In this document: piece by piece, positions 42,470 through 48,973 of the stretch | Position numbering within the stretch: position 1 is the first letter of the stretch | How the letters are laid out: every line of letters begins with the position of its first letter | Origin: Sulfuriroseicoccus oceanibius | GTDB taxonomy: Bacteria; Verrucomicrobiota; Verrucomicrobiia; Verrucomicrobiales; SLCJ01 | Assembly (NCBI RefSeq): GCF_010681825.2 | Contig: NZ_CP066776.1 | Span: forward strand, 1,488,001-1,552,000 | Length of the DNA: 64,000 bases | Reading direction: 5' to 3' | The notes under the pieces: generated by a model | The model's input: the letters and a program-made list of their open reading frames with translations, nothing else | Told to the model about the DNA's origin: nothing | The model's database searches: none | Translations under genes and position numbers: made by a program

Positions 42470-42528
42470 GGCGGGGAAAGTAGAAGTAGGGGGCGCTTTT
42501 GGATGGGCGGTTTGGTAGGGCTACCGGG

Positions 42529-44103
42529 TTACTGGGACGAGCGGCTGCTTTCGAGCACGACTTCGAGTCCGTAGATGTTTTGGAACATGTCGGCCTTACT
42601 GGTCATGGCGAGCTGCTCCACGGCGACGTCGCCGATGTCTTCGATGCCGATGTGGAGTCGGGAGTCTGAGAGGCGGATGTTGACGTCCTGGACACGCTGG
42701 GCATGAGCTCGGTCCAAGGCGTCGGCGACGCGTAGGATGGCGGCGAGCTTGCTAACGATCATGCGGTCTTCGCGCGAGAGTTCGCTATAGCCCTGGTGGG
42801 TGGGTTTGGGAGGAGAGTGGCGGTGGTAGCGGGCGATGAGTGCCACGATTTCGGTGTCGGCAGCGGAGAGTCCGAAGATCTCCGAGTGACGGATGATGTA
42901 GTACGAGTGTTTGTGATGCGCCCGTGGGGTGATGAAGTTACCGGTTTCGTGGAGGATGGCGGCGGCGCTGAGAAGGAGGCGCTCGCGGCTGCCTAGTTGG
43001 TGCAGGTGCTCCAATGTGTCGAAGAGCGAGGTGCTCAAGCGTTCGACCTGTTGGGCGTGGTTCGGGTCGATCTTGTACTGGCGGGCGATCCCCGTGGCCG
43101 ACTGCAGCACTTCGTCGCGGAACTTGCGGGTAAGTTGGGCGGAGTACGGGAGGTGGCTGAGGATTTCGGTTTCGTAGTCTTCGGAGGGGATGAACACGCG
43201 CTTGGCTCCGAACGATTCGGCCAGGCGGGTGTTGATCTTGATCGCGGCGACCATGGAGTCGGCGTGGGCGTAGTCGAGTTGGAACTCACGCACCCGCTGG
43301 TCCGAGCTCATCTCTGCCACGCGCTCGAGGAATGCCCGCATCTGTGTGGTGGTGACGCCTTTGACCGTGGTGTCGCCAATGTGTGAGGCGATCATTTGCA
43401 TCTCGTGACCAATGGCAACGACCTGGTCGACCGGGTGGTTGCGGTAGTCGTAGTAGATCGAATCGACGCTTGAGCGGGTTTGTTCGCGCAGCATGGAGAT
43501 CAACGAGCGGCCGCTGGCGTCGCTTCCCTGGATGGCTTCGTAGGCGCGGAACGCACCGAGGCGGTAGCTGGAGTATTGGGTGATCGTGCCCTTGGCGAAA
43601 TAGAGAACCCTTGTGTTACCGGGGCCGACGTGCAGCACCAGTGTGTTTTTGGCGGCGAACTTTTTGACCGTTCCCATGAGGGCGCGGCTTTGCATGTAGA
43701 TCAGGCGGGTCATTTCGCCGTCGTCGAGAGGGACGACGGTGAGGCCTGCGGCGATCTGGATGCGGTTGAGCAGCACATCCAGGTTGGAGGCTTCGGCGAG
43801 GATGTTGGTGGCCACAACGCGGTTGGGGAGCCCGTCGGGGATGGCGAGCTCGGCGAGGGCTTCTCGGAATTCTTTCAGGATGCGCACGATGCGCTCGATC
43901 ACCGGGCGGCCGACGCGGCCGCTGCGGAAGATGTCGCGAGCGATTGGTACGGGTTGCTCGAAGAAGTCCACCGGCTGGACATTGCCGTCGTCGTCCACTT
44001 TCTCAGACACCAGCATACTCACACTACCAGCGCCAATGTGGATTGCGGCGATCAGGTTGGGTGCGGGTGTTGGCGTGCTGTCGGTAGGTTGGAAAACTTG
44101 CAT
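42529..44103 (-). CDS. Ppx/GppA-like protein with HD domain, both phosphate-binding Asp replaced by His
   Basis: A 524-residue homologue of exopolyphosphatase and guanosine pentaphosphatase: two ASKHA-type actin-fold domains (about 15-330) and an HD domain (about 365-490, LHETGNFITPRAHHKHSYYIIRHSE). The family phosphate-1 motif, D-x-G-S-N-S in E. coli, reads IHIGAGS with H22; phosphate-2, D-I-G-G-G-S-T in E. coli, reads LHVGPGNT with H158. The acidic residue E130 (DDGEMTRL) remains. Both changes concern residues conserved in active enzymes. It may be inactive, use a different substrate or act as a sensor. The gene is directly upstream of ppk1, so a role in polyphosphate control is likely. Confidence 0.88.
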   Translation of the reverse strand: MQVFQPTDSTPTPAPNLIAAIHIGAGSVSMLVSEKVDDDGNVQPVDFFEQPVPIARDIFRSGRVGRPVIERIVRILKEFREALAELAIPDGLPNRVVATNILAEASNLDVLLNRIQIAAGLTVVPLDDGEMTRLIYMQSRALMGTVKKFAAKNTLVLHVGPGNTRVLYFAKGTITQYSSYRLGAFRAYEAIQGSDASGRSLISMLREQTRSSVDSIYYDYRNHPVDQVVAIGHEMQMIASHIGDTTVKGVTTTQMRAFLERVAEMSSDQRVREFQLDYAHADSMVAAIKINTRLAESFGAKRVFIPSEDYETEILSHLPYSAQLTRKFRDEVLQSATGIARQYKIDPNHAQQVERLSTSLFDTLEHLHQLGSRERLLLSAAAILHETGNFITPRAHHKHSYYIIRHSEIFGLSAADTEIVALIARYHRHSPPKPTHQGYSELSREDRMIVSKLAAILRVADALDRAHAQRVQDVNIRLSDSRLHIGIEDIGDVAVEQLAMTSKADMFQNIYGLEVVLESSRSSQ

Positions 44104-44316
44104 TGTGGCTGCGGTGGTAGAGGTGCGGCGTTTCGTGTGGGTTTTGTAACGTGATCGGGCGTCTGCAGCGAGCGATTTCGACGTCTGTGGCCATTGTTTT
44201 GCGCGCTGTGTGCCGGGCGGAAGTCTGTTGTCCGCTCGGGCTGTAACGCGGGTTTCTGGTTGCTCACTGAAAGCGAGTGCTATACATCATGTGCTTTCCT
44301 GACTGGAACGACGTTT

Positions 44317-44790
44317 ATGCCTAAATCAGCAACACTACTCCGTAAGACCAAACTCCGCGACAATGTGGCGGTTTTGTTGCGTCGTGCGGACGGGCGGCTG
44401 TTGATGGGGCGTTGTGCGGATCGTCCGGCGGAATGGCAGTTTCCCCAGGGGGGCGTTGGCGTGCGGGAAAAGCTCCGGTGTGCGATGTTCCGCGAGTTGT
44501 TTGAGGAGACGGGCGTTCGCAAGTCGCAGGTCGAAGTGGTGGAGAAACGCGGGCCGTATATTTATGTATTTCCCAATGGGCGGCTGAAGAAGGGGATCTA
44601 CCACGGCCAGAGCCAGACCTACTTCCTTTGTGATCTGTTGGGAAATCCGGACAAGATCGATGTCGCGCGTGCTGGCGAGGAGTTTTCTGAGATCGAGTGG
44701 ATTCGTCCGGAGGAGTTCCCATTTGAGCGCACGCCGGAGTTCAAGCATTCGGTGTACCGGCAGGTGATGCGTGATTTCTTCGGGGCGTAA
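44317..44790 (+). CDS. RppH-like Nudix RNA pyrophosphohydrolase
   Basis: A 157-residue Nudix protein. The box GGVGVREKLRCAMFRELFEETGV fits G-x5-E-x7-REUxEExGU, and LRDNVAVLLRRADGRLLMG, WQFPQGG and IYHGQSQTYFLCDL are characteristic of RppH and dinucleoside polyphosphate hydrolases. RppH removes pyrophosphate from mRNA 5' ends to start decay; an Ap4A role is also known in the family. ATG 44317 is used because it matches the family start. It is divergent from the ppx-like gene and 182 bases before cysS. Confidence 0.88.
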   Translation: MPKSATLLRKTKLRDNVAVLLRRADGRLLMGRCADRPAEWQFPQGGVGVREKLRCAMFRELFEETGVRKSQVEVVEKRGPYIYVFPNGRLKKGIYHGQSQTYFLCDLLGNPDKIDVARAGEEFSEIEWIRPEEFPFERTPEFKHSVYRQVMRDFFGA

Positions 44791-48140: not shown

Positions 48141-48911
48141 TTATCCGATCGCGGCTGCGTAAAGTTCGCTGACTTTCTGCCAATTGATCAGGTGGAACCA
48201 CGCATTGATGTAGTCGGCGCGGCGGTTTTGGTAGTTGAGATAGTAAGCGTGTTCCCAGACGTCGAGACCGAGGATAGGGGAGCCGGTGGCTTCGACGATG
48301 CCGGTCATCAGAGGGTTGTCTTGGTTCGGGGTTGAGCTGATGCTCAGTTTGCCTGAAGCGTCTGTAACCAGCCATGCCCATCCGGAGCCGAAGCGTGATT
48401 TTGCGGCTTGAGCGAAGGCGGCTTTGAATTCATCCATCCCGCCGAGGTCGCGATCGATGGCTTTTGCCAGCTCTGCGGAGGGATCCGACTTGGTTGGGCT
48501 CATGGTTTCCCAGAACAGGCAGTGGTTGTAATAGCCTCCGCCGTTGTTGCGCAATGCGGTGCGTACCGATTCGTCGGTTGCAGGAAGGTTGGCGAGCAGG
48601 GTCTGGATGTCTTTTCCTGCGAGGTCAGGAGCTTGTGCCAGAGCTGCGTTGAGCTTTTTGGTGTAGCCCGCGTGGTGCTTGCCGTGGTGAATGACCATGG
48701 TTTTGGCATCAATGTACGGGATCAGCTCGTTGACCGCGTAGGGGAGGTCCGGGAGGATGAACTGGCCACCCTCCATGGCTGGGATCAAAGGGGAGTCTGC
48801 TGCGAATACACGACCGATGGATGATCCGGCGATGAGAGAGCCGCCGAGCACGGTGGCGGCGGTGGAGAGGAAGCGGCGGCGACTGAAGTTGGTAGGGTTT
48901 GGTGTCTTCAT
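48141..48911 (-). CDS. Tat-exported Fe/Mn superoxide dismutase
   Basis: A 256-residue protein that starts with a twin-arginine signal (SRRRFLSTAATVLGGSLIAG) before an ordinary SOD. The metal ligands are visible: His in MVIHHGKHHAGYTKKLN, His in YYNHCLFWETM, Asp and His in LDVWEHAYYLNYQNRRADYIN. It converts superoxide to hydrogen peroxide and oxygen; the signal places it in the periplasm or at the membrane. ATG 48911 gives the Tat signal at the N terminus; an ORF extension of ten codons is less likely. Confidence 0.92.
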   Translation of the reverse strand: MKTPNPTNFSRRRFLSTAATVLGGSLIAGSSIGRVFAADSPLIPAMEGGQFILPDLPYAVNELIPYIDAKTMVIHHGKHHAGYTKKLNAALAQAPDLAGKDIQTLLANLPATDESVRTALRNNGGGYYNHCLFWETMSPTKSDPSAELAKAIDRDLGGMDEFKAAFAQAAKSRFGSGWAWLVTDASGKLSISSTPNQDNPLMTGIVEATGSPILGLDVWEHAYYLNYQNRRADYINAWFHLINWQKVSELYAAAIG

Positions 48912-48973
48912 GCTAATATCAGATCGTAGGTGAGGCAGCATTTTGTGTGATCTGATCGCCGCAATTTGCGCGG

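Follow-up and report, generated by a model that had tools for sequence, protein, structure and literature searches.

The product of a gene directly upstream of the polyphosphate kinase gene ppk1 in Sulfuriroseicoccus oceanibius is probably a pseudoenzyme derived from exopolyphosphatase (PPX) and fixed in one bacterial order, the Verrucomicrobiales; judging from its residues, it is probably a regulator or a binder and not the exopolyphosphatase that it resembles. The gene lies in a stretch of 64,000 nucleotides, here called the window, whose preliminary description had reported two Asp-to-His changes in a Ppx/GppA-HD protein; the finding is larger than that description.

The gene and its predicted product

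The open reading frame, strand and coordinates of the gene were confirmed, as was its position 59 bp upstream of ppk1 on the same strand (Table 1). Pfam assigns the protein to Ppx-GppA (PF02541, 54.3 bits; cut-off 27), Ppx-GppA_III (PF21447, 104.5 bits; cut-off 27.3) and HD (PF01966, 39.6 bits; cut-off 22), the last two in agreement with the HD domain first noted. In a profile search of the 3.50-Mb single-contig genome, this gene was the sole PF02541 match and no second Ppx was found. PF02541 and PF21447 point to the PPX/GppA fold, with an ASKHA domain followed by domain III, and an AF2 model (pLDDT 90.7) predicts that the full PPX fold is retained: VIA-align 2 matched the model to an exopolyphosphatase domain with Z 29.1 and to full-length PPX and GppA with Z 25-27, the PPX structures as a whole scoring Z 26-29. 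NTPDases are further matches of the N-terminal domain (Z 16-18), as this fold would lead one to expect.

Table 1. Positions in the window of the Ppx-like gene, its active-site and HD residues, and ppk1 (Ec, E. coli; Dr, D. radiodurans)
Feature	Position	Strand	Remarks
Ppx/GppA + HD gene	42529..44103	-	CDS, open, 524 aa; ASKHA domain ~16-325, domain III/HD ~335-515
Phosphate-1 loop, residues 17-30 (LIAAIHIGAGSVSM)	44014..44055	-	H22 (codon CAC, 44038-44040) in place of the Mg-binding Asp (Ec D17, Dr D7; PMC11234463)
A103	43795..43797	-	in place of the Arg partner of the catalytic Glu (Ec R93, Dr R86; PMC11234463)
Residues 127-134, DDGEMTRL	43702..43725	-	in place of SGxEEARL; D127, G129, M131, T132 and R133 conserved in the order
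M131	43711-43713	-	in place of the catalytic Glu (Ec E121)
Phosphate-2 loop, residues 153-166 (NTLVLHVGPGNTRV)	43606..43647	-	H158, P161, N163 and R165 in place of D, G, S and E (PMC4631893)
H158	43630-43632	-	codon CAC, checked
HD metal-site pattern of domain III	42721..43059	-	H349, H385, E386, H396, H399, H427, D461; conserved in the order
Intergenic gap to ppk1, 59 bp	42470..42528	-	no terminator-like site on this strand in the regional scan
ppk1, 702 aa	40361..42469	-	H433 and H590 (Ec H435, H592) and catalytic Arg residues present

The catalytic residues of PPX are replaced

In a MAFFT alignment with fetched relatives, D17, R93, E120, E121, D143, G145, S148 and E150 of Escherichia coli PPX align with H22, A103, E130, M131, H158, G160, N163 and R165. 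Both Asp-to-His changes of the preliminary description are thus present, with CAC codons opposite D17 and D143, but they are an incomplete account, since S148, E150, R93 and E121 have also given way to N163, R165, A103 and M131. The glycines G24, G160 and G162 of the loops are kept.

E130, which had been taken for a remaining active-site Glu, is the counterpart of E. coli E120. In Pseudomonas aeruginosa PPX the catalytic Glu, E126, is the second Glu of S-G-R-E-E (the E126A primer reads S-G-R-E-A-A-R; PMC4631893), and its counterpart is therefore M131 and not E130. Position 130 is moreover E in 49, D in 18, K in 4, S in 2 and N in 1 of 74 non-redundant relatives from the order, and we rejected E130 as a retained catalytic residue.

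The likely effect of these replacements can be judged from mutants of two relatives. Ala substitutions in P. aeruginosa PPX leave 1.1% (E126), 3.8% (D149), 5.3% (S154), 7.1% (G151) and 2.3% (E156) of the hydrolase activity (PMC4631893, Table 4), and four of these five residues are replaced in the window protein, E156 by charge reversal. In Deinococcus radiodurans PPX, the mutants D7A, E114A, D136A and E143A likewise lose activity and R86 holds E114; the roles of these five residues come from structure, simulation or mutants (PMC11234463), and the counterpart of every one is replaced. The catalytic Glu (Ec E121, Pa E126, Dr E114) is M131, the metal- and water-binding acids of the phosphate-2 loop (Ec D143, E150) are H158 and R165, and the Mg-binding Asp (Ec D17, Dr D7) is H22, with Asp never seen at this position in the order. 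Because the published Ala mutants lose activity at matching residues, loss of exopolyphosphatase activity in the window protein is strongly supported by analogy.

The groove for the polymer is altered as well. The D. radiodurans polyphosphate contacts H14, K35, R271 and R302 correspond to S29, E49, H280 and E311, H280 being the least certain of these alignments, and most of the order has S, E/D, T/G and E/Q at the four positions. Since most of the basic residues with which PPX holds polyphosphate are lost, polyphosphate may not be the ligand if the protein senses anything, and sensing of polyphosphate through the PPX groove became a less likely candidate.

The new site is fixed throughout one clade

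We aligned 94 relatives from the order, which includes the gut microbe Akkermansia; 74 of them are non-redundant at <90% identity. M131, H158, P161 and R165 occur in 94/94 members and N163 in 93/94, so that the pattern M-H-P-(N/Y)-R is universal in the sample (94/94), while D127 and G129 are found in 73/74 and 74/74 non-redundant relatives, respectively. Canonical relatives, that is, the rows outside both the order and the PVC ppk1-linked group, read D-R-E-D-S-E at positions 22/103/131/158/163/165 in 63 of 63 cases. With M131, H158, P161 and R165 present in every one of the 94 relatives, the new site is neither chance nor a sequencing error. The preliminary description was right to argue against single-residue decay: the base, the loop Ser and the two metal acids have all been exchanged throughout the order, which also supports its suggestion of a non-catalytic protein.

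What the order conserves is not a pair of His residues. Position 22 is H in 43, Y in 18, F in 10, N in 2 and Q in 1 of the 74 non-redundant relatives. A metal site altered to two His residues was accordingly rejected: 31/74 have Y, F, N or Q in place of H22, with Tyr or Phe in many orthologs, and the other metal acid is Arg.

The losses are confined to one half of the protein. Outside the order, 44 columns show a uniformity of 95% or more. Of these, 27 fall in the ASKHA domain, where the order has lost 12, and 17 in the HD domain, where it has lost none (Fisher p 0.0012, the columns not being fully independent).

The HD domain and other explanations

Domain III carries the complete motif H...H[DE]...H...D (H349, H385-E386, H399, H427 and D461), and the order conserves it; in E. 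coli PPX the first and last positions of the motif are occupied by Q332 and V443. With every invariant HD column kept and a stand-alone gene for the HD domain in other Verrucomicrobiota, the HD domain could itself be the working enzyme, a metal-dependent phosphohydrolase or a nucleotide-binding HD protein for which the former PPX domain serves as a regulatory lid. We regard this as rather unlikely: the PPX literature examined reports no HD activity for any PPX, the second HD residue is Glu and not Asp, and, the site being ancestral in long PPXs, it could have been kept for structural reasons.

The strictness of H158, M131 and R165 (94/94) resembles that of a catalytic site, and the partner, PPK1, is known to be phosphorylated on histidine. 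One could therefore imagine a re-engineered enzyme with a new catalytic site made up of H158, D127/D128, R165 and E234, such as a metal-independent phosphotransferase or hydrolase that uses a phosphohistidine at H158 and has polyphosphate or some other phosphate ester as its substrate. However, we know of no ASKHA enzyme with a phosphohistidine in this loop, the general-base position is M131, its Arg partner is absent, and most polyphosphate contacts are absent or of opposite charge, all of which makes such an enzyme quite improbable.

An ordinary exopolyphosphatase with unusual yet competent residues would account for the overall PPX fold and the ppk1 neighbor. It is very improbable, as the residues replaced include four of the five that leave 1-7% activity when mutated to Ala, E156 with reversed charge, as well as the Mg-binding Asp, and the protein scores far beneath the NCBIfam equivalog cut-offs (82.8 versus 624 bits for GppA, PRK11031, and 63.7 versus 864 for PPX). 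Decay to a pseudogene would explain the loss of catalytic residues but can be practically dismissed, and is rejected for the whole clade, given the intact 524-aa frame, full-length orthologs in several families of the order, and a mean column entropy of 0.79 and 0.97 bits in the two loops versus 1.83 protein-wide.

Linkage to ppk1 and genomic context

The window ppk1 is apparently intact, its product retaining the equivalents of E. coli R375, R405, H435 and H592. Among 152 genomes of the order, the window protein (P0001) was matched in 99, two of these being fragments, and ppk1 in 147. Both genes were mapped in 94 genomes; in 62 of these ppk1 directly follows the Ppx-like gene in the same orientation, and in the remaining third the two are not neighbors. 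About one third of the order, including most of families f4 and f5, has ppk1 without the Ppx-like gene, and PPK1 therefore does not require the Ppx-like protein.

A clearly canonical second Ppx was found in only 2 of the 152 genomes, and three more gave weak second matches below the cut-off. Both canonical proteins (L130, G248:C39; L115, G397:C11) are short Ppx with D-x-G-S-N and D-L-G-G-G-S-L-E loops; the former accompanies an H-type gene, and the genome of the latter is without one. The window genome also encodes PPK2 and a DHHA2 protein. No RelA_SpoT domain was found in it, with 11 of 14 control genomes positive in the same search, and PVC bacteria have been reported to lack RSH (PMC3153485); pppGpp is therefore not expected.

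A promoter and terminator scan of the region performed no better than chance. A Nudix hydrolase gene (44194-44790, plus strand) is divergent from the Ppx-like gene, and the nearest relative (L002) keeps the Nudix-cysS order. The minus-strand gene at 48141-48941 encodes what by eye is a superoxide dismutase-like protein, probably exported because of its twin-arginine-type signal peptide (SRRRFLSTAATVLGG).

Probable repeated erosion in PVC relatives

With the loop columns left out of the tree, the order forms a single clade (SH-aLRT 100) nested within a PVC protein group, many of whose copies lie directly upstream of ppk1, as at loci of Lentisphaerales, Planctomycetes and Victivallales. Of the 18 rows sampled from this wider group, 17 lack one or some of D158, E131 and E165, while D22 and R103 are nearly always kept; a Sedimentisphaerales row (L014) has gained His at position 158 alone. 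The residues found in relatives outside the order (L011-L021, L027, L062 and L172-L176, mostly ppk1-linked) are varied: E, N, T, S, A or I for D143, A, I or V for E121, and I, L, Q or G for E150 (E. coli numbering). Such varied partial erosion suggests repeated independent loss. Given the partial losses in 17 of 18 rows, the PPX site has probably eroded repeatedly in ppk1-linked copies, with one lineage fixing a complete new site.

Three loci of other Verrucomicrobiota (L177, L178 and L182) have canonical short Ppx open reading frames together with a separate domain III/HD frame, the two domains appearing to be encoded by split genes.

A probable pseudo-exopolyphosphatase as the best explanation

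We consider it reasonably probable that the window protein, with its intact HD metal-site pattern, is a pseudo-exopolyphosphatase that arose from a PVC PPX co-encoded with PPK1, that its glycine loops still bind something although they lack the canonical metal acids, and that it acts on polyphosphate synthesis. The ASKHA active site would have been replaced in the ancestor of the order's copies. It has lost the two metal acids, the catalytic Glu together with its positioning Arg, the loop Ser and most basic polyphosphate contacts. The glycine-rich loops are retained with a new fixed set, D127-(D/E)128-G129, M131-T132-R133 and H158-x-G-P-G-N-T-R165. The exchange of D17, E121, D143 and E150 for H, M, H and R removes the Mg2+ acids and the base and adds positive charge between the glycine loops, where R165 and H158 would substitute for the charge of Mg2+. 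The cleft would then hold either a partner protein or a small ligand that bears phosphate, free of metal and of hydrolysis, and binding would alter the closure of the two lobes, act on the HD domain and/or PPK1, and so tune polyphosphate synthesis. The earlier proposal of a sensor controlling polyphosphate synthesis is plausible, given the ppk1 linkage.

It is tempting, if doubtful, to go further and picture an order-wide pseudophosphatase whose PPX cleft has become a metal-free sensor pocket for a phosphate metabolite or for PPK1 and drives the HD domain, as a switch of polyphosphate synthesis in bacteria without a (p)ppGpp synthetase.

Domain-based annotation names the protein exopolyphosphatase and hence implies that Akkermansia and its relatives run a full polyphosphate cycle. 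Its residues probably make it unfit for that role, and a clearly canonical second Ppx was seen in only 2 of 152 sampled genomes of the order. Should it control PPK1, the protein would be a polyphosphate regulator in bacteria lacking a (p)ppGpp synthetase, and the PPX family would gain a pseudoenzyme. The ppk1-linked copies of the wider PVC group, their site probably eroded several times, offer a natural series for testing the passage from enzyme to regulator. A literature search combining "exopolyphosphatase" and "pseudoenzyme" found no paper, and one combining exopolyphosphatase or polyphosphate kinase with Akkermansia found, at the level of titles and abstracts, none on this protein.

Comparison with known PPX and GppA proteins

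The window protein shares the two-lobed ASKHA domain and HD-like domain III (PF02541 and PF21447) of long-form PPX (E. coli 1U6Z, D. radiodurans 8JGO), and D. radiodurans PPX is its best sequence match in the PDB (E 8.6e-40). Linkage to ppk1 is common to it and E. coli PPX, although the window gene precedes ppk1 and E. coli ppx follows it. It differs from long-form PPX in that the catalytic Glu, the metal acids, the Mg-binding Asp, the loop Ser and most polyphosphate contacts are replaced. The fold is also that of GppA (E. coli 6PBZ, Helicobacter pylori 6PC0), and the best NCBIfam match of domain III is the GppA model, but at 82.8 bits it is far beneath the equivalog cut-off and the catalytic losses are the same. 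A GppA role, for which an RSH protein has to make (p)ppGpp, was rejected given the absence of RelA_SpoT from the genome.

A precedent for functional divergence within the PPX-GppA family is Mycobacterium tuberculosis Rv1026, a relative without detectable PPX or GPP activity (PMC3411833). Rv1026 is, however, an active ATPase that retains the metal acids D146 and E153 as well as R90 and E123 (PMC3411833), whereas the window protein has lost the acids, the Arg and the Glu that Rv1026 keeps.
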